The position numbers and the translations under genes are program-made. The notes under the pieces are model-generated. The model was not told the origin of the DNA and made no database searches. It worked only from the letters and a program-made list of their open reading frames with translations. This document shows positions 5,690 to 30,439 of a stretch of DNA of 36,541 bases, in pieces. Positions within the stretch are counted from its first letter, which is position 1; each line of letters opens with the position of its first letter. This DNA comes from a virus: positions 1 through 36,541 of IMG/VR virus record IMGVR_UViG_3300044697_000015; one strand, written 5' to 3'.

Positions 5690-8548
5690 TCATTGAAACT
5701 GCACTCCCGGCGCAACCTGCACGCCGTTTGTAAACATGAAATTAGTGAACATCGGTGGGGGCGGAGCACTCCCGCTATCCAGCGCCAGAATGAAAATGTC
5801 CGCGCGGGTTGCATTGCTCGAATCGGTTGCTAATTTCCCGAGCATACTGCTGGACCATTCCCAGATGCGGCCATCCTGTGATACGGTGCCGATTGCATTT
5901 GAGGCAGTGAAGTAGACATCAAAAGGACCGGCATTCGTCGTTCCGCAACCAGAGGCATTGCCAGGACCAAGAATAAAGTTGTGGCCGAATCGCACTAGCG
6001 TTCCATTCTGCAGGAGTGCGTAGTTTTCATTCTGCCCGGCCGATCCCCAAGTCGAAGTTGCTGCGGAGGTTGTGTAATTATTCTGCGCTGTGCTTCCGAT
6101 GATCGGCTGAGTCTGAGCAGAAGTCGCATTCCGCCATGAGAAATGGTTCTCGCAGTTTCCTGGAAGCGCTGGGTTTGTCGGGATGCTGGCGTAAGACGTG
6201 AAGGGCGTTGCGCTGTTCGCATTCGATGGAACAAAGTTAACGAAGTTCGGATTCGAGATCGCCACTTCATTCTGATAGCCGAAGGTGTTATGTCCGGCAC
6301 AGAGAGCGCTTCCTCCGGTAAACGTGCCTGTGCAGGGCACGATATGCGTCGTCAGCGCATCCCAGAAGATCGACGTATTTCCGCAGTTTGTTCCTGTCGA
6401 GGCGCCACTGACTTGAACGTATTGCGTACCGCTGAAGCCGAAGGAGTCGTGAATGTGGGCTTTTGCGCAACTTGAGTCGATTGGTCCACCGGTAGCTGTC
6501 CCGCTGGCCGTGACGACGGCCGTGTAGGTGTTGTAGAGAGCTGCTGCACTCCCGGTAAACGTGCTTGCGCCTGGGGTTCCACTCCAACTGCCTTTTACCG
6601 CGAATTGGTGGACGCCTGTCCCTTGCCCACCATTCACCTTGAAAGAATAGGTTCCGCTGGCCCCATTCCACGCTGGCGTGATTGTGCCGGTCGTGCCAGT
6701 CCCACTGGACTGACTGAAGCTAACCTCATCCAAATATTCCGTCACTGTGCCGCCAACTGGACTCACATCAACTTGCTCCTGATTCCCGGTAGCATCCGCG
6801 AATGCGGTTGGACCAACCGGCTGCGCAGCGAATCCTGTGTATGTGGTCCCGTCAAATACCAAAGAGTCATAATAGATGCAAGGAGTGCCCGAGCAGGCGG
6901 TGTCGCCCGGAATCCTATGCACATTCCAAACAATTGAGTGCCAGGTCGCAGCCGTGTAGTTGCACGGCACTGACGTTGCGATCCATGTCGAAGTCAGTTG
7001 GCTCCAGATATCCCAGACTCCGCCGATCACGCACTGCGATCCAAACATATACTCAGTGCCGCCGTTGAACTGAAACTGATCGAACTCCAGGGCGTTGACA
7101 TTCGCCACCGATGCCACGTAGGAATGCCACGTTGAACTAAAAATCGTACTTGCATCGTTTGCGCCCGGCTTGAACCCCCATAGAGCATTCGAGTAGCAGG
7201 GCTGGTTGCTGCCAGAACCGCAAACTGATCCGCTCTTTCCAGTAACACTGAGCGCCATTGACGCACCGTCAAGCGACGGTGTGGGATTATTGATGGTTTG
7301 CGAGGTAGCCGTAGGGTTACCGGTTCCACCGCAGCACACAGTTCCGGAATTATTGAACCAGTTCGTCAGGCTGTCGTCGATGTTGGAATTGGTTTGCGTA
7401 GGACCTACTGCGGTAATGGTATAAGTGTTGTTGATGCCATTCAGGATCACCGTTGCATCCACGAGCGAGCCATCGGTCGGGAGCGTGCCAGTTACCATCG
7501 TGAAAGCGGACGAACCATTAGCCAGAGTCGCAGTGTCAGCGGAAATGCTCCGGACATTCGACATCGAGATCCAGAAAAGTTGATCGTTGATGTCTTCCGA
7601 GAGTGGGCCAGTCCAGCCAGCGTCGTATGCTTGGCCATTCGGGAGCACGCCCGAGAGCCCGATATCGTAAATTGCGACCGGACTAGAGAAGGTCAGGGGA
7701 TGGCCGATGACTGTATCCCAAGCATAGGTTACCGCGTAGATCACAGGATCGTTGACTTGTGAGCCTGCGGTCGGCGTCCCCATGAAATACGCTACCCAAG
7801 GATTCTGATGGCTCCATGTCAGAGCCCCGCACGGTGACACCGTGGCCGTGGTGTTAGAGAATGGGGCAACTACCTGAAGAATGCCGTTGACGAATTCAAT
7901 CCCTTCCACGTAAGGACATCCGCCCTGAAACGTTGAGAGCAGATAAACGGATGCGTTCGCGCACGCTGTTGAAGTATCGGCACGGCCGGCGCAGTTCCAA
8001 CCCTCGTCGTTGTCTCCGCCGGAAGCTGTCGAGGAGAGTGTACGGCCGCCCACCGATCCGCCATCACTCGCTCGCGTGATCGGATTCAATGGGTAGGGAT
8101 TCAGGCTGATATCGTAACCAACAGAGTTCAGACATGCCCCGAGGCAAGCGGTGTAATTGATATACGTAGCTCCAGATTGGCTCCCCGGATGGCTCATCAA
8201 TGTAGCCGACGTTGTTGAATTCCAAGTCGCTACCCCGAATTTTATCCCGTTGATCGTGATATTTCCGCCATTGCCCGACCCGATACCCGAGGACCATGTG
8301 GTCGTAAATTGCTGCCCGCCTGTCCACTGCATACAGCCCTGACTAGCCAAAGGAGTGCAACTCCCAAGGGCGGAATTTGAGGTAGTCACGCTTCCTGTGG
8401 GAAGGGTCGAAACGAACGGCGGATTGTTCGGCGTCTGCACTATCGCCGTCGAAGTCGAGGAGCAGGAATAGGTCGGCGGCCCGCACTGCGCGCGCGCCGC
8501 GACGGATAAACAACAGCTAATTGCCAGAAGTAATAAAATTTTCTTCAT
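5690..8548 (-). CDS. Exported fibre/adhesin-like protein with a concanavalin-like domain
   Basis: 952 residues. The start is ATG 8548, which overlaps the upstream TGA (ATGA). A longer frame up to 9127 only reads the neighbour's DNA out of frame. It begins M-K-K-I-L-L-L-L-A-I-S and ends its signal at A-A-R-A before Gln. The mature chain is Gly/Ser/Thr/Asn-rich with about 24 Cys. A central segment (S-L-D-G-A-S-M, Y-M-F-G-S-Q-C, W-D-I-W, T-W-H-S-I-V-W, Y-D-S-L-V-F-D-G, Y-L-D-E-V-S-F) matches my memory of a concanavalin-like module in acidobacterial secreted proteins. The C-terminus is unlike a catalytic domain. It is the last gene of the late transcript. A receptor-binding or surface-display role is inferred. 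Confidence 0.75.
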   Translation of the reverse strand: MKKILLLLAISCCLSVAARAQCGPPTYSCSSTSTAIVQTPNNPPFVSTLPTGSVTTSNSALGSCTPLASQGCMQWTGGQQFTTTWSSGIGSGNGGNITINGIKFGVATWNSTTSATLMSHPGSQSGATYINYTACLGACLNSVGYDISLNPYPLNPITRASDGGSVGGRTLSSTASGGDNDEGWNCAGRADTSTACANASVYLLSTFQGGCPYVEGIEFVNGILQVVAPFSNTTATVSPCGALTWSHQNPWVAYFMGTPTAGSQVNDPVIYAVTYAWDTVIGHPLTFSSPVAIYDIGLSGVLPNGQAYDAGWTGPLSEDINDQLFWISMSNVRSISADTATLANGSSAFTMVTGTLPTDGSLVDATVILNGINNTYTITAVGPTQTNSNIDDSLTNWFNNSGTVCCGGTGNPTATSQTINNPTPSLDGASMALSVTGKSGSVCGSGSNQPCYSNALWGFKPGANDASTIFSSTWHSYVASVANVNALEFDQFQFNGGTEYMFGSQCVIGGVWDIWSQLTSTWIATSVPCNYTAATWHSIVWNVHRIPGDTACSGTPCIYYDSLVFDGTTYTGFAAQPVGPTAFADATGNQEQVDVSPVGGTVTEYLDEVSFSQSSGTGTTGTITPAWNGASGTYSFKVNGGQGTGVHQFAVKGSWSGTPGASTFTGSAAALYNTYTAVVTASGTATGGPIDSSCAKAHIHDSFGFSGTQYVQVSGASTGTNCGNTSIFWDALTTHIVPCTGTFTGGSALCAGHNTFGYQNEVAISNPNFVNFVPSNANSATPFTSYASIPTNPALPGNCENHFSWRNATSAQTQPIIGSTAQNNYTTSAATSTWGSAGQNENYALLQNGTLVRFGHNFILGPGNASGCGTTNAGPFDVYFTASNAIGTVSQDGRIWEWSSSMLGKLATDSSNATRADIFILALDSGSAPPPPMFTNFMFTNGVQVAPGVQFQ

Positions 8549-10563
8549 TGCATTTCCAAGAGCGCAAACATCCCTACGGCCGGCGCTGCCACAACCGGAG
8601 CCGAAGAGGTATAGGTATAAGAATTCACCGTGCTGTCGCTTTGCGTGCTGGTGCCCGCTATGATCTTGAGAGTCTCCGCCGAAACCACGGAAATCGCGGT
8701 CGAGTACTGCGTGCCCGTGGTGCAGCCAGTTCCCGAACCGTTGGTGGCTGGAGTCGTGCCCGTCGTGGTGTAGCAGGCCACGGTCGTGCCACCATTCGGA
8801 TTTGTGCAAGTGACTGTCTGGGGTACAACTCCGGAAGTTGGAGAGCACGTTGCCGGGGTTGCCTGCGTGTTGATGACATAGACATAAGAATTGACTGGAC
8901 TGTCCGTCAGCGTGCTCGTCCCTGCGATGATATTGATCGTAACCGAGGCCGCTACTGTGATTGTCCCGCCGCTGGTCAGAAGAGTTCCGGTTGTGCAGCC
9001 GGTTCCTAAACCATTCGTGGCCGGGATCGTTCCGTTGATCGCATAGCACTGAACCGTCGTCCCTGAATTTGGGTTCGTGCAGGCTGGAGTCTGAGTTGAG
9101 GAGTACGTTCCTGATCCTGGAGAGCAAGTTGAGGGAGAAGCTTGAGAGGCCGTGGGTGCATCAATGCCAAGCAACGGCACGATCTGCGGGCTGCTCGGAT
9201 CGTTGTCGGTGATCTGCAAAGTATCTCTGACTGGCCCCGTTCCTGTGGGCGCGTAGGTTACGGTAATCGTGCAACTGGCAGCGTTTGAAATTGATGTGCC
9301 GCAGTTGTTCGTCTGCGAGAAGTTTGTCCCAGTTGTGAAGGCGACGGAGAGGCTACCGAGGTTTCCCGTATTCCCTGCAGTGAGCGTGATGGTTTTCTGA
9401 TTCGCGGAGGCGGGGAGCCAGAGCAGGCTGCTCGCCGAGAGATTCCCGCAGTGGGTATTGCTGCCTTGGTCGGTTGCGCTGTTTGGAGTTGTGCTCTGAA
9501 TCCAATACTGGCCATTCATGCCAGAGGTCGGAGTCCATGAAATCGGGGCGGCTGTCCAGGTAGTTCCGGCTAAGAATGAGATTGTGTTGCATCCCCATGC
9601 GCTGCCAGATCCAAGAGTAGCCGCATTGTTATAGAGCGGACCATTGACCTCAGCTAAGTCGGTGCCGAGCGAATTGTGGCTAACGAAGGAGTTCGTCGGC
9701 GCAGGTGATGCTCCGGGGAAAAACGCCGCCGTGTATCCATAGCCGCAGAGATAATTGAAATTTGTCTGCATCGAGGCATAGCCAGACGTACTCCCCTGAT
9801 ACGCGATGCCCTGAGTGTTTCCGATGGAGCAATTCGTGTTGCCCTGCAAGGTCACATTGCTCGGAGCGGCCGTGCCGTTCAGGTAGCCAGGGCCATCGGT
9901 GTGGTCACCGAAAGTTGCCGCATATCGTGAGTCGTGCATCCAGCTATTGACCACAGTCTGCGAGTTGCTGGAGTAGAAAGTAATTGCGTTGGCGAACCCC
10001 CACATATCCATGCCCGTGACATAGACGGGTCCGCCTGAGGGAATGTTAATTCCATACTGATAGCCGCTGCTCCCAATGATTGCGTTCGTGCCGGAAACCT
10101 GAGTGGTCGTATTCTGTCCCGCTCCAGCCGAAGGCCATGCCGCTCCCGGCGGAGATGTGGCGAATGACGCCAAGGGCACAATGCTTGGATAGACCAGGTA
10201 AACGTTCGCGCCTGTAATCTGGACGTTGTAATTAGCCAGATCGTTGGACTGAAAGCGGCACCCCTTAAACAGAACATTGGAGCCAGTGACCAGCGTTCCC
10301 GACGTGGTACCGGTCCCGTAGAAGTCAACGCTGTCGAACTCGCAGTAATTGCAGTTGATCGTCTGGTAAGAACTGTATGTACAATTCGAGATCTTAGTCC
10401 GCGTCGCCCAGCTTGAGCCGCTAGAGAAGGCTCCGCACGCGGTGCCATTCAGCGATCCGTAGGCCGCATAGCCCACGGTGTTCCCAGATTGCCCAGGCCA
10501 CGGAGCTTGCGCCGTAGCAGAAATTGAGCACAGCCCGATAATGACAGCAGGAAGATATCTCAT
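8545..10563 (-). CDS. Exported beta-helix protein with choice-of-anchor D and two CHB_HEX_C domains
   Basis: 672 residues from ATG 10563. The signal peptide M-R-Y-L-P-A-V-I-I-G-L-C-S-I-S ends at A-T-A before Gln. Residues about 30-390 look like a right-handed beta-helix (short repeated strands with Asn and Gly turns). About 391-472 is an ASH/choice-of-anchor D immunoglobulin-like domain (N-L-G-S-L-S-V-A-F, S-C-T-I-T-V-T-Y-A-P). Residues 473-565 and 566-655 are tandem copies of a CHB_HEX_C-like domain, each with C-Y then a T-P-A-T-N-G turn and I-I-A-G-T-S-T. About 19 Cys are present. These modules are typical of bacterial secreted proteins, not virion parts. Adhesion to a surface glycan is a reasonable inference. 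Confidence 0.75.
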   Translation of the reverse strand: MRYLPAVIIGLCSISATAQAPWPGQSGNTVGYAAYGSLNGTACGAFSSGSSWATRTKISNCTYSSYQTINCNYCEFDSVDFYGTGTTSGTLVTGSNVLFKGCRFQSNDLANYNVQITGANVYLVYPSIVPLASFATSPPGAAWPSAGAGQNTTTQVSGTNAIIGSSGYQYGINIPSGGPVYVTGMDMWGFANAITFYSSNSQTVVNSWMHDSRYAATFGDHTDGPGYLNGTAAPSNVTLQGNTNCSIGNTQGIAYQGSTSGYASMQTNFNYLCGYGYTAAFFPGASPAPTNSFVSHNSLGTDLAEVNGPLYNNAATLGSGSAWGCNTISFLAGTTWTAAPISWTPTSGMNGQYWIQSTTPNSATDQGSNTHCGNLSASSLLWLPASANQKTITLTAGNTGNLGSLSVAFTTGTNFSQTNNCGTSISNAASCTITVTYAPTGTGPVRDTLQITDNDPSSPQIVPLLGIDAPTASQASPSTCSPGSGTYSSTQTPACTNPNSGTTVQCYAINGTIPATNGLGTGCTTGTLLTSGGTITVAASVTINIIAGTSTLTDSPVNSYVYVINTQATPATCSPTSGVVPQTVTCTNPNGGTTVACYTTTGTTPATNGSGTGCTTGTQYSTAISVVSAETLKIIAGTSTQSDSTVNSYTYTSSAPVVAAPAVGMFALLEMQ

Positions 10564-10565
10564 GG

Positions 10566-11333
10566 CTACCAGTACGTGAAGAGTGAGGTTGCGATGCGAA
10601 TGTCATCAACGATGAAATCCGTCCCCGTCTGGGATAGAAAATTAACGCGGGCGACGTTGGCCGTCCATGTTCCGTTTGTCGAAGCCGTTCCAGTCGTCCA
10701 CGAACTACCGTTCGACGAGAAGTACGGCGTGCAAGTGGCGTTTGCTCCAGTCCCCGCAACAGCCTTGATCGCTATGTAATAAGTGGTATTGGTCGCTAAC
10801 GTAACCGCCGTGGTTTGGGTCGTGCCGCCTGTGTTGGAAACATTGAATTGATTGTTGCTGAAGAAACTCAGCCGGCACAGAAGATTGTCAGACCCATCCA
10901 ACACTGAGAATAAAAACTCACTGGACGCAGGCAGGGTATCGACGTTCACCATAATCCCGGCGTAAAACGTACTTTGCGCGGTGACTTGCTCTTCGACGTT
11001 TACCGAACCGCCTGTTGCTACATAAAACGAGCGGGTTTGTTGGAGGGGTGCCGGAGGAGTTGTGTAAGCAAAATTTGGGGTACCTGCCGCGAAGAATACC
11101 CCTTGATCGCAGGTTGAGCCGTAGCTCGCATAGCACAGCGTCGAACCCTCAAACGTTTCCCGCAGAAGGCACCCTGATGAACCAGTCACGGATGGAGGAC
11201 CGGAACATCCTGAAATCGCACGTATGCCTGGAGTCAGCACTGAGCCTTTGTTGAACTTGGCGCCCTTGTTAACCGTTAACCCCTGCCCAAAAGCGAAAGA
11301 GCAGAGCAGCGAGATGGTGAGCAGCGTTCTCAT
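10566..11333 (-). CDS. Exported lectin-like (LamG/concanavalin fold) protein
   Basis: 255 residues from ATG 11333, which overlaps the upstream TGA. A start four codons earlier is possible. The signal peptide is M-R-T-L-L-T-I-S-L-L-C-S-F-A-F-G before Gln. The body from about residue 60 reads as a beta-sandwich: F-E-G-S-T-L-C-Y, an A-G-I-M-V-N-V-D strand, F-L-F-S-V-L-D-G, T-T-Y-Y-I-A-I-K-A, a W-T-x-N-V-A-R strand and a final F-I-V-D-D-I-R-I-A. This order of strands, ending in a V-D-D-I motif, is characteristic of concanavalin-like carbohydrate-binding domains. Six Cys occur in the mature chain. It probably binds glycan as part of the exported set; the ligand is unknown. Confidence 0.7.
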   Translation of the reverse strand: MRTLLTISLLCSFAFGQGLTVNKGAKFNKGSVLTPGIRAISGCSGPPSVTGSSGCLLRETFEGSTLCYASYGSTCDQGVFFAAGTPNFAYTTPPAPLQQTRSFYVATGGSVNVEEQVTAQSTFYAGIMVNVDTLPASSEFLFSVLDGSDNLLCRLSFFSNNQFNVSNTGGTTQTTAVTLATNTTYYIAIKAVAGTGANATCTPYFSSNGSSWTTGTASTNGTWTANVARVNFLSQTGTDFIVDDIRIATSLFTYW

Positions 11334-18378: not shown

Positions 18379-19737
18379 CTAACTAAATGTACAAACATAG
18401 TTCCACGAATATTGAGTTGCCCCTGTCAACCCGCTAGCCCCGCTAATAATTTCAAAGGCTGTGGGCTCAACCATGAGTACTCCAACTTGAGCGGCACTGA
18501 GCAACGCCTGCGCTGCTCCGAAAGGAGTAATGCTGCAATGCGCTGCGGTGTGCGTGCCTCCGAATGTTACCGTGACCACGGTGGCACTGGAACCGGTAGG
18601 GGAGGAGCCCGTTGTAATGACGAGGAAACCGCCGCTGTCAGTGCACGTATCGCTGCAGGCGATTGTCGGCCCAGTCCCAGCTCCCGTGCCTCCCACTGTC
18701 GATGCGATTGCAGATTGACCGAGAAGATTTATTAACGATGGTGATGTGACGATGCCCGGACTGAATAAATTTACTGACTGGGAACCGGTCCCGGTCGATA
18801 GCACCAACCCCAATACCTGCCCACTCCCTGCTACCGGATACGTTCCTGCTCCGGTATCGTGGCAATTCCCAGGGACGGAAGTGCTCACTTGAAAATAATC
18901 GCCAGCAGTGGTGCCCCCATCGAACGCGCAATTCACAATCCCAGACTGCTGGATGGTCGCGGTTCCCGTAATTCCTGCGCCAGCGGTGACAATACCGATA
19001 ATGGCGCTCGTCGTTGAGCTGGGCGCGACGGTGGCTGTAGATGGCGCTCCCGTCGCGATCGCGAGTTCGTTCAGTATTGTTGCCGTTACTGAATTGTTCG
19101 GGATGCACACATAAGTTGCGGGTCCATTCGTCACTCCGCAGCCATTGATCTCAGTTCCGGTCGTGAGATTTTTATCAGTTAGTATCTGGGTTGCATTTTC
19201 GCTGACGAGCGTATCGCTTGCAGTCAGCACTGGCCCGTGAAGGATAACGTTTGAACTGGTCGGCGGAATGTCGAGTGTCGTCTGTGTTCCTGAAGGCGAG
19301 CCGAATACCAGTTGCAGATCGGACAGGTTAAAATACGTTGTCGCGTCAAAGGTCTGAGACGCGGCCCACACATTTGCGTTGTTGAGTAGACTCCCGTTTA
19401 CCCCATTCACCGTGAGAATTGTCGCTCCAGAAGCGCAATTCACTCCGCCCGAGCTCTTGATAACCACGGAATAAATCAGTCCTGACTGGAACCAGATATT
19501 AGCTGTGCCGCCTGCGGAAAGTGGCGTAGGATCGGGATTCAATGTGACCCCAGAATAATCTGTGTACGTCGCCAGTGGGGTTGTCGTGCCAGAATAATAT
19601 GTCCCGACACAGCCGAACGCATTCATCGCGCCCGATGGAAGGATACTTACGAACTGTGGGTAGGTTCCCAGACTGACCGGAACTTGCGCGAGAGCAGAGC
19701 CGCACAGCAAAAGCAGGACTGCAAGAATCTTTTTCAT
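18379..19737 (-). CDS. Exported tail-fibre-like protein
   Basis: 452 residues from ATG 19737, which overlaps the upstream TGA (ATGA). The 16 codons of frame upstream are the neighbour's DNA. The signal peptide is M-K-K-I-L-A-V-L-L-L-L-C-G-S-A-L-A before Gln. Residues 20-100 match a domain common at the start of phage fibres: a P-Q-F strand, G-T-T-T-P-L-A-T-Y-T-D, N-P-D-P-T-P-L-S-A-G-G-T-A-N-I-W and a G-L-I-Y-S-V-V-I-K strand. The remainder is a Thr/Ser/Gly-rich shaft with about ten Cys in total and a C-terminal F-E-I-I-S-G-A beta unit. It is the first gene of the exported series, directly after the ejection proteins. Confidence 0.75.
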   Translation of the reverse strand: MKKILAVLLLLCGSALAQVPVSLGTYPQFVSILPSGAMNAFGCVGTYYSGTTTPLATYTDYSGVTLNPDPTPLSAGGTANIWFQSGLIYSVVIKSSGGVNCASGATILTVNGVNGSLLNNANVWAASQTFDATTYFNLSDLQLVFGSPSGTQTTLDIPPTSSNVILHGPVLTASDTLVSENATQILTDKNLTTGTEINGCGVTNGPATYVCIPNNSVTATILNELAIATGAPSTATVAPSSTTSAIIGIVTAGAGITGTATIQQSGIVNCAFDGGTTAGDYFQVSTSVPGNCHDTGAGTYPVAGSGQVLGLVLSTGTGSQSVNLFSPGIVTSPSLINLLGQSAIASTVGGTGAGTGPTIACSDTCTDSGGFLVITTGSSPTGSSATVVTVTFGGTHTAAHCSITPFGAAQALLSAAQVGVLMVEPTAFEIISGASGLTGATQYSWNYVCTFS

Positions 19738-21329: not shown

Positions 21330-23152
21330 TTCGGTCTAACCTGCCCCCCGTACTGCGAGAAGAAATCGGACCCTTGTGCGGAAGGCGGGATGGTATTACC
21401 CGTTTTCATCCTGTTCTGAATATCCGCGATCTGCTGTTGATATGCTTGGTGCCGATTCCCCATGTCTTGACGCAAAACATTCGCAGCCGAGGCAATCTGG
21501 CGCAGAGTAGCATTCGGTCCGATCAACCCTTCGACTTCATGCCGTGCGGAATCCGAGAGCACACCCGAAGCATTTGATGAGTTGAGCACCTTAGCAATTT
21601 CGGTCACCGCAGTCTGTCTCGCAGCATTGAATGCCGCCTGCTCTGCCGAACCCAGTGCTCCAGCATCCACTGAACGAAGCGGCGCGTTAATCCATGGCGA
21701 ACCAGAATCGAGGACTGGCTTGGCCGTTTGCAGAAAGAGATCGAGGTTCTTTCCGGCAGTATTCTCGAAAGCTGTAACCTGGTCAAAGTTTGTTTGCAGT
21801 TTTCCGAGAGACTGCTGATTCGCTTTGTATTCCGCCGAATTTGCGGCGAGACTCGCGCCGGGGTGAAGGTCTCCAGCACGATTCATCAATTCTCGATTGA
21901 GAGCAATTCCAGAAATACCCCGCCCTACCTGGGGAAGTTGGCCAGTGGAATAATATTTCTCCGCAGCCTGGTCGAAAGCCTCTTGCGTCATGCCAAAGCG
22001 CTTGGCAACTTGTGCGGGATTTGAAGCTCCTCCGGTGGGATTTCCTGGCACACCTCCGCCACTCTCCAACGAGTAGCGCGTATCAATCGGAAGCGTGGAC
22101 TTATAATGCAGGAAATCCGCTGGGCCTTTCCCGGGATTCTGCTTGATCCAGTCCTGCATCTCCTGCTGCTCGACCGGGGCTACTCCGTGAATCACTTGCC
22201 CTGTTTTAAAGTTGACTAGTGTCCCTTCGCCGGCTGGCTTCCACTGAGAAGCTTCTCCCTCCGCCTGTTTCTGTGTAGCCGTGGCTTGCGATTCTGCCGT
22301 CTTCGCCAATTCCGCGGCGTTCAATCTAGCTTGTTTCAGGGAACCGACTTCCGCTTCCGCCAAATCGATATCGCGCCCATCCTGTAGCGTCGGTGGCAAT
22401 CCTTGAATCGGAATTCCCTGATGCGCGAGATTGAGAAGTGCTGCCTGGTATGCCTGTTGAGTCTTAGGGCCGATGGGTCGCGGAGCATTCGCCATAGCAG
22501 TCTGGATTGCTCCCTCGGAACCGGTGGGGGCAGTCCCGACAGGAGGCGTCCCCAGTGATGTCGGGGAACCTGGCGCAGCCGCTCCGATATTAGTTGTCGG
22601 CGCGGTCACATCGTAAGGTGCGGGGGCTGGAGGCTGGAGCGGCGACGGAGTGGCTTGCGGAACTGCTGCAGGTGGTGCGGCGGGGGCGGCAGGCGGATTT
22701 TCCTGCGATTCCTTATCGTAAACGCCCTTGACCGTCTCCAGTTGATTCTGGATTGCTCCGTGGGTCTTATCCCAATTGTCGATCTGTGCGGAGTTCAACC
22801 CCAAAATGTTTTTCTGGAGTTCAATCTGTGACATCCGCATCTTCTGGATGCTCAGCGGATCTGCGCCGCCCTGCAGCATGGCATTGTAGAGCCCGTCATT
22901 GTCGAAGCCAGTAACTTTCCCATTGTCGTCTTTTTGCACGTACTGCGGAGCGAGTTGGCGACGCAGCATTTCGTCCTTTAATGCGAGGCCCTGCGCTTGA
23001 TTGGCCTGCTGCAGCCCTTGGGTCTGCGCTTGAGTCTGTGCGGTTTGGGCCGCATCTTGGCGCAAGGATGCCGCTCTTTGTTGCTCCTCCAGCGCATTCG
23101 GTGGCGGAGTCGGTCTAACGTCGATTTGAGGGTAGAAACTGTTTGCGCTCAT
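21326..23152 (-). CDS. Putative internal/DNA-ejection protein
   Basis: 608 residues from ATG 23152, three bases after the preceding stop. The N-terminal 120 residues are a Gln/Ala-rich helix (Q-T-A-Q-T-Q-A-Q-T-Q-G). Residues 150-215 are Pro/Ala-rich and likely disordered. The C-terminal half is helical with few hydrophobic runs. No Cys is seen, in strong contrast to the genes downstream. Its place and composition fit the P22 gp20/gp16 type of internal proteins that leave the head with DNA and form the conduit across the envelope. Sequence-level homology cannot be shown by eye. Confidence 0.65.
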   Translation of the reverse strand: MSANSFYPQIDVRPTPPPNALEEQQRAASLRQDAAQTAQTQAQTQGLQQANQAQGLALKDEMLRRQLAPQYVQKDDNGKVTGFDNDGLYNAMLQGGADPLSIQKMRMSQIELQKNILGLNSAQIDNWDKTHGAIQNQLETVKGVYDKESQENPPAAPAAPPAAVPQATPSPLQPPAPAPYDVTAPTTNIGAAAPGSPTSLGTPPVGTAPTGSEGAIQTAMANAPRPIGPKTQQAYQAALLNLAHQGIPIQGLPPTLQDGRDIDLAEAEVGSLKQARLNAAELAKTAESQATATQKQAEGEASQWKPAGEGTLVNFKTGQVIHGVAPVEQQEMQDWIKQNPGKGPADFLHYKSTLPIDTRYSLESGGGVPGNPTGGASNPAQVAKRFGMTQEAFDQAAEKYYSTGQLPQVGRGISGIALNRELMNRAGDLHPGASLAANSAEYKANQQSLGKLQTNFDQVTAFENTAGKNLDLFLQTAKPVLDSGSPWINAPLRSVDAGALGSAEQAAFNAARQTAVTEIAKVLNSSNASGVLSDSARHEVEGLIGPNATLRQIASAANVLRQDMGNRHQAYQQQIADIQNRMKTGNTIPPSAQGSDFFSQYGGQVRPK

Positions 23153-23155
23153 GCC

Positions 23156-23971
23156 TTATCCGCCATAAGATCCCAGCCCAGAACTGCTTCCCGGTGCGGT
23201 TGGAGCGAAGTTATTCCCTGCCCCGCCGCCTGGCGCGTAGCCTCCTGCACTCTGATTGCTTGTTCCCACTCCGCCGCCGTAGGGATTCTCGTTCTGCAGC
23301 CCTTGAATCATTGCGTTCCAGGCGTTTGCCGATCCGATATCCCCAGCCGCCACCGCATTTCCGTAGTTGTTAAGCTGCGTGGCTTGCTGCTGCCCGCCAG
23401 TCAAGTACAGGTTCGAGAGGTTATTCGCCGCTGCCTGACCGTACTGCCCAAGTTGACCTGTGGAAGTCAGCCCAGCCTGCATCCCACCCGCAGCGGTCCC
23501 GACATTCGTCTGATACTGATTCAGCGCGTTCTGGTATGCCTGCTGATAGGTAGTGGTCGCAAGACCTTGCCCGTACTTCTGGAGCGCAACTCCTGTGTTG
23601 CCGGAGTTGAGGTTTCCCGTGGCCGCGGCTTGCTCATTAATCGCCTGCGTGCCTTGCTGGAGATTGAATTGGTAGCCCGGAGTGTTCTCTGCTTGCGCGA
23701 GAGTTGGGGCTGTGAATGGATTGTTGACGAGATTCGCATAAGCATTTGCGGAGGTCTGTCCTACTTGCTGATAGGGCTGCTCGGCAGTCGTCAGTCCTTG
23801 CAGTTCGTTGGTCTGGAAATTGACGCCGGACTGCTGATTCTGGAGTTCAAGGGCCTGAGCTTTCTGGTCGGCAGATTCTTGTGCTTGCGTAGCATTTTGG
23901 ACAGCATTTCGGGTCTGGATGCCCCCGACGACCGTCCCGACCATATTTGCGATTGCGCCGGCTACAGGCAT
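23156..23971 (-). CDS. Putative internal/DNA-ejection protein (gp7-like position)
   Basis: 271 residues from ATG 23971. It opens with a small hydrophobic segment (A-G-A-I-A-N-M-V-G-T-V-V-G-G-I) and then Gln/Ala-rich helices. The middle has A-E-N-T-P-G-Y-Q-F-N-L-Q-Q-G and Y-Q-Q-A-Y-Q-N-A-L-N-Q-Y, landmarks that I recall from minor structural proteins of many metagenomic podoviruses. The C-terminus is Gly/Ser/Asn-rich and flexible. No Cys is seen. It follows the hub gene by position and probably is ejected with the genome, like P22 gp7. A plus-strand promoter lies just upstream of its start. Confidence 0.7.
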   Translation of the reverse strand: MPVAGAIANMVGTVVGGIQTRNAVQNATQAQESADQKAQALELQNQQSGVNFQTNELQGLTTAEQPYQQVGQTSANAYANLVNNPFTAPTLAQAENTPGYQFNLQQGTQAINEQAAATGNLNSGNTGVALQKYGQGLATTTYQQAYQNALNQYQTNVGTAAGGMQAGLTSTGQLGQYGQAAANNLSNLYLTGGQQQATQLNNYGNAVAAGDIGSANAWNAMIQGLQNENPYGGGVGTSNQSAGGYAPGGGAGNNFAPTAPGSSSGLGSYGG

Positions 23972-24283: not shown

Positions 24284-24286
24284 GCC

Positions 24287-24505
24287 ATGCGATACGCGAT
24301 AGTTGATCCTTCCCCTGATATTGTCTGGGTCCGTCCCGGAGTTTGCGTGCGGGTAGTCGCTGGCATTCGGCACGATTGGCTTGAGCAGATAGCCGCTATG
24401 CCTTTAGACATCGCCAGATTTCCATATCGCACAGAACGCGAGGTCAAAGTCACCGCGACAATTCTCCGAGTACACCGTCCGGCTTGCTTATCCCCAATAG
24501 AATAG
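24287..24505 (+). CDS. Second plus-strand hypothetical protein in the late block
   Basis: 72 residues from ATG 24287, with AAAAGGAG seven bases upstream. It begins M-R-Y-A-I-V-D-P-S-P-D-I-V-W-V and reads as a compact alpha/beta protein with a V-C-V-R-V-V-A-G strand. Its last 56 bases overlap, on the opposite strand, the 3' end of the GNAT-like gene. It is coupled to the preceding 88-residue gene. Function unknown. Together they look like a moron unit, a self-contained pair with its own promoter placed among late genes. Confidence 0.6.
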   Translation: MRYAIVDPSPDIVWVRPGVCVRVVAGIRHDWLEQIAAMPLDIARFPYRTEREVKVTATILRVHRPACLSPIE

Positions 24506-24932
24506 AGTCGTGCAATGTCCCGCGCTTCATATAGCTCTTAGGATTAACTCCGTAGCACACCAGTCCGCACCGTTTTGCGAATGACAGCGCCAGCCTATTG
24601 TATTCTGGGACCAATGTCACGATCCTCAAGCAGCGCGTATTCTCCCACACCCACCGGATCATGCCGCGCCCCGCTGCCTCTGCTTGAGAACCATAGCTTT
24701 TAGGTAACAAGCACGTATGCACGTCCCAGCAGATTTCATTCTGCGGAATAAAGAGAAACATGCCTAGCAATTCATCGCCATCCATTGCGAGGACGTACCA
24801 GAGGCCCTCATCGTCGGTTGCCTTCCAATCTTCTGGCTTTGCTGCGAAGTCATCCGACACGTGCGGATAGATTGCGGGGTGTGTGACAATGCTTTTGACT
24901 AGCGTCCAATTGCGCGTGCGCTCGAAAGTCAT
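24450..24932 (-). CDS. GNAT-like (DUF2824-like) protein
   Basis: 160 residues from ATG 24932, directly after the TAG of the upstream gene. The sequence follows the acetyltransferase fold: an N-terminal helix pair, W-Y-V-L-A-M-D-G-D-E-L-L-G-M-F-L-F strands, E-I-C-W-D-V-H-T-C-L-L, then an A-A-G-R-G-M-I-R-W-V-W helix and N-R-L-A-L-S-F-A-K-R-C-G-L, the usual closing element. Phage GNAT-like proteins of this size occur in the tail module of podoviruses (T7 gp13 has been placed near this group). It may be a virion assembly factor, not an enzyme. The acetyl-CoA loop (Q/R-x-x-G-x-G/A) is only partly matched by Q-A-E-A-A-G-R-G. Confidence 0.7.
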   Translation of the reverse strand: MTFERTRNWTLVKSIVTHPAIYPHVSDDFAAKPEDWKATDDEGLWYVLAMDGDELLGMFLFIPQNEICWDVHTCLLPKSYGSQAEAAGRGMIRWVWENTRCLRIVTLVPEYNRLALSFAKRCGLVCYGVNPKSYMKRGTLHDSILLGISKPDGVLGELSR

Positions 24933-25268
24933 CTAACCTACAGGCCACCAAACTATTCCGTCCGACTTGATACGGATCACATCTTGATAAGCGTGCAGCA
25001 TGAATGGACCGCCCTCCACGTTAGTCAGTGTGAACGTATTCGCATCTTTGCTGATTTTGGTGTAAGTGATCTCTACATTTTGGTTGGACTGGCCGCTGCC
25101 TTGGATTCCCGCCGGAGGAGCCTCTTCTGAGTACGGACCTTCCGACGTGTCCACAGTGCGTAGCGGATTCGATACTTGCACTTGGAGATGCCATTTACTC
25201 ATCGGCTCTCCCACATTCTGCCCATATCGAAGCGGAGGAGGAGGAAGAGTTGACTGATTCGTAGGCAT
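24933..25268 (-). CDS. Hypothetical protein between hub and GNAT genes
   Basis: 111 residues from ATG 25268; the start shares a base with the upstream TGA (TGATG). The N-terminal third is Pro/Gln-rich. From about residue 66 it reads as a small beta domain (V-E-I-T-Y-T-K-I-S-K-D-A-N-T-F-T-L-T) ending W-W-P-V-G. No family is recognised. Placement just after the gp10-like gene makes a small tail-associated part plausible, but nothing in the sequence proves it. Confidence 0.65.
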   Translation of the reverse strand: MPTNQSTLPPPPLRYGQNVGEPMSKWHLQVQVSNPLRTVDTSEGPYSEEAPPAGIQGSGQSNQNVEITYTKISKDANTFTLTNVEGGPFMLHAYQDVIRIKSDGIVWWPVG

Positions 25269-26767
25269 CAGTTGTAAACCTGCTCTCCTTCACACATCAC
25301 TCGGATAGAAGTATCGATGATCCGCCACGGAATCGGATCGCTACCGCTCAACTCCAGCACTGGCTTTCTCGCGCGTCCAAGCATCAGCTTCCGCACGCGC
25401 ACATCGTATTCACCAGCTTGTCCGCAGTCGAGGATGAATTCATTGCCCCACGTCTTTGAACCATCGCGCGAGACTCGCAGCATGACTTGCGGGGCGCGGG
25501 GCTGGCCGTTCCCATCGAGAAGCGGCGGAATTGGGCCGAGTCCGGTTTCGAGAATGAACTCCACCTCAGGAATGGAGAGCCACTTATTTTGAAACATCAT
25601 CAGTGGCCCGCGCCTCAGCCAGCGCAAAGGATTCCCAAAATCGGTATATGTTCCGATCGCCATCTGGTAAATGTTCCCCGAGGCCCAATCGCCTACCAAG
25701 TGCATCCCAAAGGCATAAGCGTGTGATGTTGAACGGTGGGCCGTGTATGAAGCAGTCGGCTGATTCCAGAAACCTCTGCGATGCCACAGATTCGTGAGGA
25801 AATCGTAGGCCCAAGTTCCCTTGGGGAACCTGATCACCCAGAATGTGTGTCCTTGATCTTCATAGGCGTAAGCTTGCGCCGCCGCGATATCACTGGCAGA
25901 GTACTGCTGCCATGCAAATTCAGTGGCTAATGTCGAGATCCTCTGCCCTGCAGTTCCGCTTGCCAGAACTTTCGCTTGCACCGGTCCGCGTTCGTTCTGA
26001 GATAGCCAACACACCGTGTCCGCGACTTGCACTGTCGCAAATGTCGCCGCGCAACCATCTTCGAGAAATGCGCCTTGGATCGGGATGAACGGCGGAAATC
26101 CTGACCCGGAGTTGTAGTAGATGATCGATTTCTTCCCTGAAAGAAATCCGATATTCCGATGATCCACTTTCATCGATACAATATCGTCGGGGAAGTAGGA
26201 GATGGTCGAGATAAACAGCCCGCTCCAGGTTGTGCCATCCTCAAGATTTGATACTTGAAATGTGTTTGAGTCCTGAATCGTCGCGCAGAAGTATCCATCG
26301 CAGAAATCAATCTGCAAGACAGGCCCGTTGAATTGCGACATATCGACGGCGATGAATGTCCCTGCGGGCTGCAGATTATTATTCGAGTCCGTGAAGGCTG
26401 TCAGGACGTAAACAAAGAGATCGCCATTCGAGAGAATCAGCAGATGCGTCTGACAGGAAAAGATTTGCGTCGGCGAAAGTGGTGGCCCGTTCAGAGTTCC
26501 GATGGTGTTGAATGTGAAATTCGCGAACAGTTCATAGAACTTCGCCCCGGCTGCAAACGTCCTCCCGTTGACTTCAAAGATGCACGGCACCGCCGTTTCC
26601 GGTAGAGCGTATTTCACCGTCAACCCCGGAGTGTGCATAAGAGTCATTGGAGTAGTAGAGGCTTCGCTCTCGGGTTGTTCCGGGTATAGGTTGAAAATTT
26701 CCTCGCAGCCGGCAATCGGGGATTGAATCGTATACGCCCCTCCGCAGAATCGCCACTTTGTCGGCAT
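25268..26767 (-). CDS. P22 gp10-like tail hub / packaged-DNA stabilisation protein
   Basis: 499 residues, close to P22 gp10 (472). It begins with F-x-G-G-A-Y in an antigen-like start and E-I-F-N-L-Y-P-E, typical of this family, in which N-L-Y-x-E follows a G-x-Y-x-x-x-S segment. The body is a beta-propeller with repeated strand groups (F-C-A-T-I-Q-D-S-N-T, N-I-G-F-L-S-G-K-K-S-I, W-V-I-R-F-P-K-G-T-W-A-Y-D). The C-terminus has the family's signature S-R-D-G-S-K-T-W-G and G-E-Y-D-V-R-V-R-K-L-M-L-G-R-A-R, ending S-D-P-I-P-W-R-I. It closes the portal channel and joins the head to the tail. ATG 26767 follows the previous TAG directly. Confidence 0.85.
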   Translation of the reverse strand: MPTKWRFCGGAYTIQSPIAGCEEIFNLYPEQPESEASTTPMTLMHTPGLTVKYALPETAVPCIFEVNGRTFAAGAKFYELFANFTFNTIGTLNGPPLSPTQIFSCQTHLLILSNGDLFVYVLTAFTDSNNNLQPAGTFIAVDMSQFNGPVLQIDFCDGYFCATIQDSNTFQVSNLEDGTTWSGLFISTISYFPDDIVSMKVDHRNIGFLSGKKSIIYYNSGSGFPPFIPIQGAFLEDGCAATFATVQVADTVCWLSQNERGPVQAKVLASGTAGQRISTLATEFAWQQYSASDIAAAQAYAYEDQGHTFWVIRFPKGTWAYDFLTNLWHRRGFWNQPTASYTAHRSTSHAYAFGMHLVGDWASGNIYQMAIGTYTDFGNPLRWLRRGPLMMFQNKWLSIPEVEFILETGLGPIPPLLDGNGQPRAPQVMLRVSRDGSKTWGNEFILDCGQAGEYDVRVRKLMLGRARKPVLELSGSDPIPWRIIDTSIRVMCEGEQVYN

Positions 26768-27037: not shown

Positions 27038-27049
27038 GTGCTGTATACT
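27020..27049 (+). promoter_or_regulatory. Sigma-70-like promoter of the 113-residue plus-strand gene
   Basis: TTGCGG (27020-27025), an 18-base spacer, then TATACT (27044-27049). A GGAGG ribosome site (27057-27061) and ATG 27072 follow. The promoter overlaps the start of the minus-strand gene at 27037, so divergent transcription must share this DNA. Confidence 0.55.
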
Positions 27050-27071
27050 TTCGCGCGGAGGTACTTCCACA

Positions 27072-27413: not shown

Positions 27414-27417
27414 CATA

Positions 27418-27452
27418 CGCGGGAGTTCTCGGTTGACTCCCGCGATATTCTT
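27418..27452 (+). terminator. Intrinsic terminator after the plus-strand moron gene
   Basis: CGCGGGAGT (27418-27426) pairs perfectly with ACTCCCGCG (27436-27444) around a nine-base loop. A short AT-rich run (ATATTCTT) follows on the plus strand. The stem begins four bases after the stop codon of the 113-residue gene and ends ten bases before the stop of the convergent gp4-like gene. Confidence 0.75.
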
Positions 27453-27454
27453 AA

Positions 27455-28264
27455 TCACTCAGCCCTTCCCCCAACAGCCCCGCCGGTTGCCCAATTGAAG
27501 TCCGCTTTCTTGCGGCCACTTCGCGGCATCCCAGAATCCTGCAACGAAATCCTAGGCGCCGGTGCGTTTGGACCTACCATTGCCGCCCTCGCCACAAGCG
27601 CCGCCTTCTCTAACATCGGCGGGACTGCCACTTGCAAGCCGGGACACAACGTCTCCGCCAGCGTTAGTTTGATTGCGGTGCGATAGGCTGGGGGAAGCGT
27701 TCCAATTCCCCCAGGTCCCCCGATCGGATCGGTAATGGAATCGAACTGCGGGACCGTGGTCCATGTTTGCAATCTGACCTGATCGCCCTCATTGATGACG
27801 GGCCAGAAATACAGTGAGGCATCCGGCCAGGTGTAATCCGGGTAAACGTCGGTAGGCACATTCGTTTGAATGCTCTTGACTTGGTTGCGCGCCCACCAGT
27901 CTTTATCCCGAATATTGATCGGCAGATCGACCGGGAAACCCGCATTTAGAATCAGCGCCGCACTTTCGAGTCGCACAGGACGCTGCGGAACCGACCAATT
28001 CGCTACCGGACTTGGCCCCATCAATACCGGATTCACTCCAGCAGGGAACGTGAACAGCGTGAACTGATACGAGTACACGCGATTCCGCATCGCCTGCCAT
28101 ACGTCCATCAATTCGTTTGCTTTCCTGAACGCCCATTGAAGCACGTTCGGGTCGCTGTTCGATTCCCCCGGTGAGTATGCTCCGGTTTCGATTAGAGCAT
28201 CGGCGCACAAATCCCCGATGGTGTACTGGATCGGAGCTTCCGATAGCGGTGGAGTGATCGGCAC
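27455..28264 (-). CDS. gp4-like head-completion / head-tail joining protein
   Basis: 269 residues from GTG 28264, directly after the upstream TAG, with GGGGGAG upstream. The N-terminal half has I-G-D-L-C-A-D-A-L, helices with A-N-E-L-M-D-V-W and Y-Q-F-T-L-F-T-F; then I-N-I-R-D-K-D-W-W and Y-F-W-P-V; then L-P-P-A-Y-R-T-A-I-K-L-T-L-A-E. This order matches my memory of phage proteins that bind below the portal (P22 gp4 / podovirus connector family), which carry a W-P strand and L-P-P-x-Y-x-x-A-[IL] helix. It is longer than P22 gp4 (166). The role is to extend the portal and receive the gp10-like hub. Confidence 0.7.
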   Translation of the reverse strand: MPITPPLSEAPIQYTIGDLCADALIETGAYSPGESNSDPNVLQWAFRKANELMDVWQAMRNRVYSYQFTLFTFPAGVNPVLMGPSPVANWSVPQRPVRLESAALILNAGFPVDLPINIRDKDWWARNQVKSIQTNVPTDVYPDYTWPDASLYFWPVINEGDQVRLQTWTTVPQFDSITDPIGGPGGIGTLPPAYRTAIKLTLAETLCPGLQVAVPPMLEKAALVARAAMVGPNAPAPRISLQDSGMPRSGRKKADFNWATGGAVGGRAE

Positions 28265-28660
28265 CTAGAGTTTCGCTCCCCCCGTGCATGACCCGCGGTG
28301 AGGACTCTTCCCGCAGCCGCGCGAACAGAGTTCCGCCTCGGCATCGGGAAGCACTTCGTCTTCGCCGTAGACTGAGATCGGATTTTTGAGGTATCCCTCT
28401 TTCATCTTCGCGGCCATCTCTTCCTCGTTCTTCACGATGATGGTCAGATAGGGGACTGTCGGGAGAAGTTCCATCTTCTCGGGGTGGAGCTTGTTGTAGA
28501 GCACGATGCGGTTATATTCGGCCAGCCAATTCTTATCTTTGGCTGTTGGGTGGTAGAGCATACGCGGGAACTGATTCTTTCGCGGGTCAAAAGGCACGCG
28601 CGGCGGATTATTGATGTCCACCATCTTCCCACTGACGAATGAGTTGCTAACCTGTGACAT
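28265..28660 (-). CDS. Hypothetical head-region protein
   Basis: 131 residues from ATG 28660, which has AGGAGA six bases upstream. A longer frame to 28783 would couple to the preceding stop (TAATG), but its extra 41 residues lack protein character and contain an inverted repeat. The product starts M-S-Q-V-S-N-S-F-V-S-G-K, with P-P-R-V-P-F-D-P, Y-L-T-I-I-V-K-N-E-E-E and a C-S-R-G-C-G motif near the end. A Cys-x-x-x-Cys plus His suggests a small metal knuckle. It is placed between an Ig-like gene and the head-tail joining gene. The family is not recognised. Confidence 0.65.
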   Translation of the reverse strand: MSQVSNSFVSGKMVDINNPPRVPFDPRKNQFPRMLYHPTAKDKNWLAEYNRIVLYNKLHPEKMELLPTVPYLTIIVKNEEEMAAKMKEGYLKNPISVYGEDEVLPDAEAELCSRGCGKSPHRGSCTGGAKL

Positions 28661-28721
28661 TGTTTCTCCTAACTGTTGTGATCGGATTGCGGTATTTCTT
28701 TCGACTCCCCCAAGGTCCATC

Positions 28722-28753
28722 TCCAAGGGCCAGCGTTCGCGCGGACCCTTGGA
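28722..28753. repeat. Inverted repeat in the leader of the 131-residue gene
   Basis: TCCAAGGG (28722-28729) and CCCTTGGA (28746-28753) form a perfect 8-bp stem around 16 bases. It sits in 28661-28782, the only stretch here without a firm gene on the minus strand. No T-run follows on either strand, so it is not a clear terminator. It may be an RNA structure ahead of the ribosome site. Confidence 0.5.
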
Positions 28754-28782
28754 ACTGAACTCACGAAACACCCTAGGCGGCA

Positions 28783-29097
28783 TTACGCCCCGCTGTCGGT
28801 CACGTCGAGAACGAAGGTTCCGGTGCCGGCCACGCTGGGCGTACCGGAAATGGTGACGTTTCCACTGCCGTCGATTGCAGCGGTCAATCCCGGCGGCAGC
28901 GCCGAAGGGCTGGCCGGATCAATCACAGGGGCCAGATACGGGCCAGTGCCACCGGTAATCTGCGCGACTGGGACAGCCGAAACTGCCATCCCCACAGTCT
29001 CAGCGGGCAAGGTCACACTCGAGGGGCTTGCTACCAGAGGTGGAGGGGCGGGAGGGTTGATGGTGAGAGTTACGCTGATCTGAACTGTCTGCGGCAT
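28783..29097 (-). CDS. Putative Ig-like (He_PIG type) decoration protein
   Basis: 104 residues from ATG 29097, with GAGGA about seven bases upstream. A start at 29166 would add 23 residues and overlap the upstream gene by 25 bases. The sequence ends with the pattern of the putative immunoglobulin-like fold He_PIG (PF05345): A-Q-I-T-G-G-T-G-P-Y, L-P-P-G-L-T, I-S-G-T-P-S-V-A-G-T-G-T-F, L-D-V-T-D-S. Phages often use single Ig-like domains to decorate the capsid or tail and to bind cell-surface carbohydrate weakly. Its place a few genes after the coat gene fits a decoration role, which remains inference. Confidence 0.7.
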   Translation of the reverse strand: MPQTVQISVTLTINPPAPPPLVASPSSVTLPAETVGMAVSAVPVAQITGGTGPYLAPVIDPASPSALPPGLTAAIDGSGNVTISGTPSVAGTGTFVLDVTDSGA

Positions 29098-29141
29098 TTT
29101 GTTATCCTCAATGATTACGGTGATGTGCGGGTTGAAATTGA

Positions 29142-29405
29142 TTACGACTTCGCGGGTTTGCCCCATGATGCCGCCTTCTTCGGAGCAGTGGATTCCTTGG
29201 ACTTCTCTTCCGCAGCCACAGCATCCAGATCTGCGGCAGACGGTACTACTGGTTTCGGTGCATCCCCCAGCAATTCGGTAAGCGTGTCGCGCAACCGCTT
29301 CGCTTCCGCGATCGATAGTGTGCGCTTCAGGTTGGTCAGAAAGTGGATGTTTTCCGGCCCTGAGATGGAGGCCGGAACTCGATTGACAAAAAATTCATTC
29401 GCCAT
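29142..29405 (-). CDS. Hypothetical protein after the capsid terminator
   Basis: 87 residues from ATG 29405 with AGAGGAAA seven bases upstream. The longer frame to 29633 runs out of frame through the upstream gene and is rejected. The N-terminal half is a compact fold (M-A-N-E-F-F-V-N-R-V, I-H-F-L-T-N-L-K-R-T-L). A helix with R-L-R-D-T-L-T-E-L-L follows, then a Lys/Ala-rich tail. It is the first gene downstream of the intrinsic terminator, so its transcript depends on read-through or another start. The family is not recognised. Confidence 0.65.
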   Translation of the reverse strand: MANEFFVNRVPASISGPENIHFLTNLKRTLSIAEAKRLRDTLTELLGDAPKPVVPSAADLDAVAAEEKSKESTAPKKAASWGKPAKS

Positions 29406-29417
29406 GATTTCCTCTGT

Positions 29418-29450
29418 GAAAAAGTTCCGGGCCAGCCGAAACTGGCCCGG
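29418..29450 (-). terminator. Strong intrinsic terminator after the coat/exported-protein pair
   Basis: On the minus strand, CCGGGCCAG pairs with CTGGCCCGG around TTTCGG, immediately followed by AACTTTTT. Plus-strand coordinates of the arms are 29427-29435 and 29442-29450. The nine-bp GC-rich stem and T-run are textbook features. It lies nine bases after the stop of the 326-residue gene and would cap a high-level coat transcript. Confidence 0.85.
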
Positions 29451-29458
29451 ATGTTGAG

Positions 29459-30439
29459 CTAGTACATCTCGAAATACGGTCCCTGCGTGGTCGTGTAAGC
29501 CGTGGGTGCCGTAATGGTTGCGGGGATGGTCGCGTAAGTCTGCCCCGTATAAATCTGGGTCAGCACTCCAGCGTTTCCGTCCGCAGTAACCACTAAGTTG
29601 AGCGTGTCCGTACTGCTTTGCGCCTGAGAGCACACAAAGTACAGTGCCGGACCCACTGCAACAAACGACGTGGTGAGGGCAATCCGCTGAAACTGGCTTG
29701 CGGTTCCCGTGGTCGTCGTGCTTCCCGTATTGGCCAGCAAAATGCCCGACGCATCGTAAAGAATCGCGTTGCGGTGGCCGTTTGCTGTGGCTGTTCCATT
29801 CAACCAGCCAAGACCGGTAACCAACCGAGTCGCAGGAAGGTCGAACTCAGTGCAATACATGCTGGTGTTCGTGGTAGCCGTCGAGGTGCCAATGCCGGTC
29901 AGCACTGAACCACCCACCGGAGGCGAGTTTACGATGGTCGGCGACATTCCCTGAGCCGGAATATTGCCGTTGACCCAGACTCCGCCTAAGCAGTCGGAGA
30001 TCAGCGTCGGAGCCCCACCCAAACCCACCGAAATTACCGGAAGGTATGCGACATTCGACCGAGTACAGCTTCCTGTCGGCGCCACGGTATTCAGCGCATT
30101 GGGATACCCGATCTGGCTGTTGGCTGGAATCACGAACACCAACGCACCAGACAGGTGTGGACGCGCTTTTCCCAATGACTGATAACCGCGGGTTACGCCA
30201 ATCGTGTTCGCGGTCGTATTGACCGAGTTCACGAACATGGCTTCCCCCAACCCATCGGCTACGAAGATCATGGAACTCGTAGCCGTGAGTCCGGTGACCG
30301 ACGTGAGCGAGATGCTCGTGGTCGAGCTGGTCGTCACCGCAGCCGCCAGCGTGGTGTGAGTGAGGATAGTCTGCCCGAACGACATCGAAGCCGCCAAGAG
30401 CAGGACCGAGAGAATCAGCGAGGTTTTGAGAGTTTTCAT
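29459..30439 (-). CDS. Exported protein encoded directly after the coat gene
   Basis: 326 residues from ATG 30439, with AAGGAC about eight bases upstream. The signal peptide M-K-T-L-K-T-S-L-I-L-S-V-L-L-L-A-A-S is cleaved near S-F-G before Gln. The mature chain starts with a beta domain (I-S-L-T-S-V-T-G-L, I-G-V-T-R-G-Y-Q-S) resembling a short structural module of phage fibres. It then has an N-L-V-V-T-A-D-G style beta-sandwich at the end. Four Cys are present in the mature part. It lies 12 bases from the coat gene and just before a strong terminator, so it should be among the best-expressed late proteins. An exported partner of the coat is odd for a podovirus. Function unknown. Confidence 0.75.
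   Translation of the reverse strand: MKTLKTSLILSVLLLAASMSFGQTILTHTTLAAAVTTSSTTSISLTSVTGLTATSSMIFVADGLGEAMFVNSVNTTANTIGVTRGYQSLGKARPHLSGALVFVIPANSQIGYPNALNTVAPTGSCTRSNVAYLPVISVGLGGAPTLISDCLGGVWVNGNIPAQGMSPTIVNSPPVGGSVLTGIGTSTATTNTSMYCTEFDLPATRLVTGLGWLNGTATANGHRNAILYDASGILLANTGSTTTTGTASQFQRIALTTSFVAVGPALYFVCSQAQSSTDTLNLVVTADGNAGVLTQIYTGQTYATIPATITAPTAYTTTQGPYFEMY

Follow-up and report, generated by a model that had tools for sequence, protein, structure and literature searches.

Tailed phages are generally taught to assemble entirely in the cytoplasm. The tailspike of phage P22, whose gene lies directly behind the ejection-protein genes, joins finished heads as the last step of assembly, and can do so in vitro. 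Virion proteins made with cleavable signal peptides are known from the filamentous phages, whose coat proteins carry them and whose particles are assembled in the membrane and extruded without lysis. Here we describe a stretch of viral DNA of 36,541 nucleotides (36.5 kb), IMG/VR record IMGVR_UViG_3300044697_000015 (the window), that holds the larger part of the late genes of a P22-like podovirus, with the morphogenesis genes on the minus strand, and in which a putative tailspike and several fibre-like proteins are predicted to begin with Sec export signals. Eight genes, designated A to H, were studied (Table 1); seven form a single run directly behind the ejection-protein genes, and H adjoins the major capsid gene. 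The reading that we favour, and consider likely, is that the proteins with signals are virion parts of a P22-like podovirus that infects Acidobacteriota in soil, and that they pass through the Sec pathway of the host on their way to the particle.

One domain with and without a signal

Evidence for the tailspike assignment of G comes from profiles and models. A profile built from signal-bearing family members only matches the entry 7eeq_A, 'Tailspike head-binding domain' (expect value, E, 1e-8), and an AlphaFold2 model of the domain (predicted local distance difference test score, pLDDT, 84) matches the Pan3 and Pam1 tailspikes and the head-binding domains of P22 and Sf6. The N-terminal head-binding fold and the position of the gene beside the ejection proteins are those of a P22-type tailspike; the departure from that type is that the domain does not start at the initiator methionine and is instead preceded by an export signal. 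A P22-type tailspike would also have a trimeric receptor-binding body displayed on virions. No signal-less tailspike candidate was seen in the window. In a related record, G001, the head-binding-domain profile matches the G homologue (gene 7232-8824) a second time, at residues 389-491.

A survey of this domain across viral contigs, confined to non-redundant members and to cysteines within the first 100 residues, separates two groups. In the 42 signal-less members the domain runs from the initiator methionine, and 40 contain no cysteine; in the 28 signal-bearing members it runs from the predicted cleavage site, and 26 contain exactly two (Mann-Whitney U test, p about 1e-14). The pair sits at different sites in different branches: there is a main arrangement, a C-x-x-C arrangement in another branch, and others. 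Because the methionine of the signal-less homologues sits exactly at the cut of the signal-bearing ones, cleavage would restore the normal virion-binding end. Seven P22-like phages, from named hosts or spring water, have tailspikes that start without a signal, in agreement with the first-pass annotation of this DNA, which had stated that ordinary podovirus tail proteins lack one.

Export signals and their conservation

Signals were called by a rule combining a von Heijne prokaryotic matrix score of at least 3.5, a hydrophobic core of at least 1.9 and an n-region charge of at least +1. Six of the eight studied genes pass, as against 0 of the 22 other genes of the window. D (matrix score 3.2, core 3.5) and E (0.9, core 3.1) fail the cleavage-matrix cut-off only, and both have a G-Q site. 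The first-pass annotation had listed eight exported proteins with glutamine just after the predicted cut in seven; all eight open reading frames (ORFs) lie where it placed them and glutamine occupies +1 in seven, and the export call holds for seven proteins but not for F. F was left out of the exported set because it contains another hydrophobic stretch and weakly matches DUF5658; it is probably a membrane protein rather than a soluble exported one. Convincing Sec signals are thus predicted for the other seven, tripartite and with small residues at -3 and -1, and their cleavage and translocation in the host are likewise predicted.

The signal-bearing starts of A, C, E and G are taken to be real because each overlaps the preceding stop codon by 4 bases (A/B, C/D, E/F and G/third ejection gene). 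These overlaps and the author-annotated starts of the cultured phage Tunturi 1, considered below, rule out chance or misplaced start codons as the source of the signals. Among 37 members of the G family, the signals have a mean identity of 32% vs 51% for the domain behind them, yet a hydrophobic core and an A, G or S at -1 are kept in 37 of 37 and glutamine at +1 in nearly all, which argues for selection on signal function. Glutamine is also the commonest predicted +1 residue in the hosts: of the 51 signals predicted in 400 kb sampled from an Acidicapsa chromosome, 16 have it, vs a background of 3.8%.

Cysteine content and predicted disulphides

Pooled over the seven exported proteins, cysteine makes up 2.47% of residues vs 0.60% in other late genes (Fisher p=2e-13). 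The mature counts that the first-pass annotation gave for A, B, D and E are exact (Table 1), and the scaffold and the three ejection proteins do lack cysteine, as it said. Even cysteine numbers are an accepted hallmark of exported proteins with disulphide bonds (PMC7678975). Of 61 signal-bearing phage proteins less than 60% identical to each other, 54 have an even number once the signal is taken off (p=2e-10), and under stricter clustering 36 of 43 and then 26 of 30 do; the controls give 60 of 131 for signal-less phage ORFs and 20 of 33 for host signal-bearing proteins. Of the proteins whose signal itself contains an odd number, 15 of 19 have an even mature count (p=0.01; 8 of 11 under strict clustering, p=0.11), suggesting that the cut precedes cysteine pairing.

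Mere composition as the cause of the cysteine richness is ruled out by the even-count bias and the pairwise gain, both absent in signal-less phage ORFs and host proteins. The pairing statistics point to disulphides. DsbA-like proteins were found in all three host genomes and VKOR in two of the three. Host exported proteins are low in cysteine (median 0.48% in the Acidicapsa sample), so the phage exported proteins are not simply borrowed.

Relatives, hosts and the cultured Tunturi phages

A search with the portal protein, which is about 29% identical to the portals of named P22-like phages, returned 33 viral contigs. In all eight longer records with a readable region behind the ejection proteins (G001, G002, G008, G010 and G012 to G015) the large tail genes start with signals; their presence again in all relatives with a readable tail region argues that the signals are more than chance. 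The relatives' set contains 12 members of the G family and nine of the H family, with signals in all. Scans of viral contigs with the single proteins G, the gp10-like protein and E gave few or no matches; an alignment of the G family succeeded. Prophage-type contigs in Acidobacteriota genomes, including that of the isolate Acidicapsa dinghuensis 4GSKX, have signal-bearing tail genes too, and these prophages together with Tunturi 1 support Acidobacteriota as the hosts. In genome surveys with the G-family alignment, signals were found in three of four Acidobacteriota matches and in one of six Pseudomonadota matches, the latter a doubtful case: a 29 kb contig (L068, G018:C94) of a 'Betaproteobacteria' metagenome-assembled genome, bearing a signal-bearing relative of the window phage. 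As the portions read look like phage throughout, this contig may be misbinned.

Tunturi 1 is a plaque-forming podovirus of Tunturiibacter psychrotolerans X5P2 that has been imaged by electron microscopy (PMC11924767). Signals are predicted at the annotated starts of its ORF12, 13, 14 ('tail spike'), 16 and 17 ('virion structural protein'), and these tail-region proteins contain 1.3-2.7% cysteine; the text of the publication does not mention signal peptides (PMC11924767). In Tunturi 3, which infects the same host strain, the structural genes are signal-less and encode 0-0.85% cysteine, and those of Tunturi 4 likewise lack signals and have few cysteines. The trait is therefore a property of certain phage lineages and is not general among phages of these hosts. 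The signal-less, cysteine-poor fibres of Tunturi 3 on the strain of Tunturi 1 rule out a peculiarity of the host cytoplasm as the explanation. The A4-type head-binding domain was not detectable in the signal-bearing proteins of Tunturi 1, and a scan with the N-terminus of ORF12 gave short partial matches only. Elsewhere in these genomes, a Tunturi 4 gene annotated 'regulator of chromosome condensation' (45645-46250) starts with a strong Sec-like signal, and the small ORF43 of Tunturi 1 (39529-39912), which lies in an otherwise early-type region, starts like a lipoprotein (SLSGCAHQ).

The other predicted exported proteins and the late region

Scans of the eight full-length proteins against Pfam and PHROGs gave almost no matches, the ASH immunoglobulin-like (Ig-like) domain of B being one that was found (PF15780, E 8e-8). 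D shares its N-terminal domain with three relatives, each keeping one cysteine pair, and has a variable C-terminus; in E the first 145 residues, signal included, are conserved at 54-72% in three relatives, again with a variable C-terminus. All nine members of the H family have four cysteines. The best match of an H model (pLDDT 78) in the PDB is 9jwb_Z, from the capsid asymmetric unit of cyanophage A4 (E 8e-6), with weaker structural matches to tail-tip proteins, and modelling thus suggests a capsid decoration or fibre protein, the decoration role being the probable one.

The window contains a P22-like morphogenesis module consisting of portal, coat, scaffold, gp10-like closure and ejection proteins (phrog_156, 283, 8865, 578 and 598; Table 1). 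No terminase was seen within the window, whose end falls just upstream of the portal region and whose record is probably incomplete; in the relative G001 a large ORF (31524-33029) lies at the corresponding place.

Table 1. Features of the window. Lengths are in amino acids (aa) of the whole product; a slash marks the predicted cleavage site.
Feature	Position	Strand	Details
A, predicted exported, fibre/lectin-like, 952 aa	5690..8548	-	signal 8489-8548 (ARA/Q); mature protein 24 cysteines
B, predicted exported, ASH Ig-like domain, 672 aa	8545..10563	-	signal 10510-10563 (ATA/Q); mature protein 19 cysteines
C, predicted exported, 255 aa	10566..11333	-	signal 11286-11333 (AFG/Q); mature protein 6 cysteines
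D, predicted exported fibre, 1251 aa	11330..15085	-	signal 15023-15085 (ARG/Q); mature protein 32 cysteines
E, predicted exported fibre, 995 aa	15098..18085	-	signal 18032-18085 (CYG/Q); mature protein 23 cysteines
F, small protein, 97 aa	18082..18375	-	second hydrophobic stretch; weak DUF5658 match
G, putative tailspike, 452 aa	18379..19737	-	signal 19687-19737 (ALA/Q)
P22-type tailspike head-binding domain of G	19363..19686	-	first 108 mature residues; one cysteine pair
Three ejection-protein genes	19734-21329, 21326-23152, 23156-23971	-	no signal; 0 cysteines; 23156-23971 phrog_598, the others by position and composition
Head-closure protein (Hc3), P22 gp10-like	25268..26767	-	phrog_578 E 1e-82; no signal
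Head-tail adaptor-like protein (P22 gp4 position)	27455..28264	-	phrog_12985, weak phrog_637; no signal
H, predicted exported, 326 aa	29459..30439	-	signal 30374-30439 (SFG/Q); adjoins major capsid gene
Major capsid protein	30452..31702	-	phrog_283 E 2e-49; no signal
Scaffold	31706..32806	-	phrog_8865; no signal; 0 cysteines
P22-like portal	32916..35237	-	phrog_156 E 7e-71; no signal

Several neighbouring genes were noted in passing. An acetyltransferase-like gene (24450-24932, minus strand; phrog_651 'head morphogenesis' and phrog_1249) separates the closure gene from the ejection genes, an arrangement shared with several relatives, and a short, Ig-like-looking protein without signal or cysteine (28783-29166, minus strand) is encoded between the adaptor region and H. 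At the left end, a run of hexapeptide-like repeats (IGSYAEIGSDAEIGPGAKIG..., 3-497, plus strand) is broken off at the end of the record; it is followed by two genes judged by eye to be DNA methyltransferase-like (494-1009 and 1290-2573, plus strand), an HNH-like gene (2775-3377) and a nucleotidyltransferase-like gene (3928-5037).

Proposed assembly in two compartments and its alternatives

From the signals, their conservation, the head-binding domain and the cysteine pairing, all read from sequence, we infer the following route. The signal-less core of the particle (portal, shell, scaffold, neck and ejection proteins) would form in the cytoplasm, and the outer parts (tailspike G, the fibres A to E and H, the probable decoration protein) would be synthesised with cleavable signals and exported to the periplasm. 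There they would be cut at the A/G-Q site, oxidised by DsbA-type enzymes of the host and kept from the DNA-filled heads until lysis mixes the compartments, whereupon the head-binding domain would dock on the tail. The predicted division is regular: parts made around DNA or scaffold are signal-less, and parts that could be added from outside bear signals. That the signals are functional and the proteins disulphide-bonded is highly probable, and that the mature proteins are virion parts is very probable. Core and exported parts are likely joined after lysis, because the two would lie in separate compartments. We also lean, somewhat more cautiously, towards the view that two-compartment assembly completed at lysis has originated two or more times among acidobacterial podoviruses, through the addition of a signal to ordinary tailspikes.

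The first-pass annotation had offered a choice between tail parts that mature outside the cytoplasm and an exported adhesin or receptor system, here taken as independent of the virion. The domain behind the signal, the signal-less homologues and the cysteine pairing speak for the former; the latter explains neither the virion-binding domain nor the position of the tailspike gene, and it sits poorly with the lack of a signal-less tailspike candidate and with cysteine contents far above those of host exported proteins. It is similarly unlikely that the proteins are exported and never enter the virion, acting on the envelope or the colony as free adhesins, decoys or polysaccharide-degrading enzymes during infection or lysogeny. 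Signals and disulphide signature would fit such a role, no virion domain is known in A to C, and envelope-acting exported phage proteins such as Lom (PMC12309495) and the endolysin Lys44 (PMC6116005) are known; yet G has a tailspike head-binding domain with no signal-less counterpart in the window, the conserved N-termini and variable C-termini of G, D and E are typical of virion-anchored receptor-binding proteins, and Sec alone reaches the periplasm, not the cell surface. A dual fate, with an unexported share built into tails in the cytoplasm and an exported share used otherwise, for example in blocking receptors against superinfection, fits all the sequence data and would do away with the problem of joining after lysis. 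Proteins escaping export would, however, retain the signal and lack disulphides, whereas the near-universal pairing of cysteines implies selection of the oxidised form, and we regard this possibility as quite improbable.

The conserved small residue at -1 with glutamine at +1, as in host exported proteins, the exact match in register between the domain behind the cut and the signal-less homologues, and the mostly even mature counts behind signals with odd cysteine numbers all make it very unlikely that the hydrophobic segments are left uncleaved and serve as virion-embedded or membrane-tethering elements, even though cleavage here is itself a prediction and F and a few members with long n-regions resemble membrane anchors. 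Capture of host exported proteins by recombination, with the signal as a relic, could account for the resemblance of phage to host signals; it is scarcely credible given the gap in cysteine content (about 2.5% in the phage proteins), the retention of signals over wide divergence and the fact that the first protein is a phage tailspike. Several points nevertheless weigh against assembly in two compartments. The reading does not explain how enough exported spike would stay near the released heads. G alone has a recognised virion-binding domain, and no role in the virion has been assigned to A, B or C; the mature cysteine counts of B and E are odd, and D and E fall below the strict matrix cut-off. 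The signal predictor was our own implementation of a classical matrix and not SignalP, so that its scores are approximate, and the ranking of the 80 loci of the domain survey was against a query with a signal, for which reason the signal-bearing share is no estimate of frequency.

Significance and comparison with known systems

If assembly after lysis takes place, it would constitute a new assembly route, in which receptor-binding parts mature in another compartment and join the particle once the cell has lysed. Phages would thereby gain disulphide-stabilised adhesins, and their infectivity would come to depend on the Sec machinery, signal peptidase and disulphide enzymes of the host. Annotation pipelines may mistake such tailspikes for host secreted proteins. 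Tunturi 1 and its host X5P2 are in culture, and Tunturi 3, which infects that strain too but lacks the signals, offers a built-in control.

No report of signal peptides on tailed-phage tailspikes was found in the open-licence literature searched. The parts are known (a P22-like phage, a tailspike, a Sec signal); what appears to be new, as far as the open-licence papers go, is their combination. The closest described relatives are the tailspikes of P22, Sf6, Pam1 and Pan3, which resemble G in the fold and profile of its first ~100 mature residues and in having the gene behind the ejection proteins, and which belong to phages with the same type of neck, portal and capsid; they start at the initiator methionine and are cytoplasmic, whereas G adds a putatively cleavable Sec signal and a cysteine pair. 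Xanthomonas phage PBR31, Shewanella phage X14 and Rhodoferax phage P26218 share the genome type and have tailspikes with a homologous N-terminal domain (33-47% identity), but none has a signal. Tunturi 1 resembles the window phage as an isolated acidobacterial podovirus with five signal-bearing, cysteine-rich tail-region genes, and differs in its 63 kb genome and in that its signal-bearing proteins cluster apart from the window group. Lys44 and the signal-arrest-release (SAR) endolysins likewise use the Sec pathway of the host, with disulphide control in the SAR case (PMC6116005); they act on the cell wall and are not virion parts. From the filamentous phages, finally, the window phage differs in that its tailed capsid must be filled in the cytoplasm.

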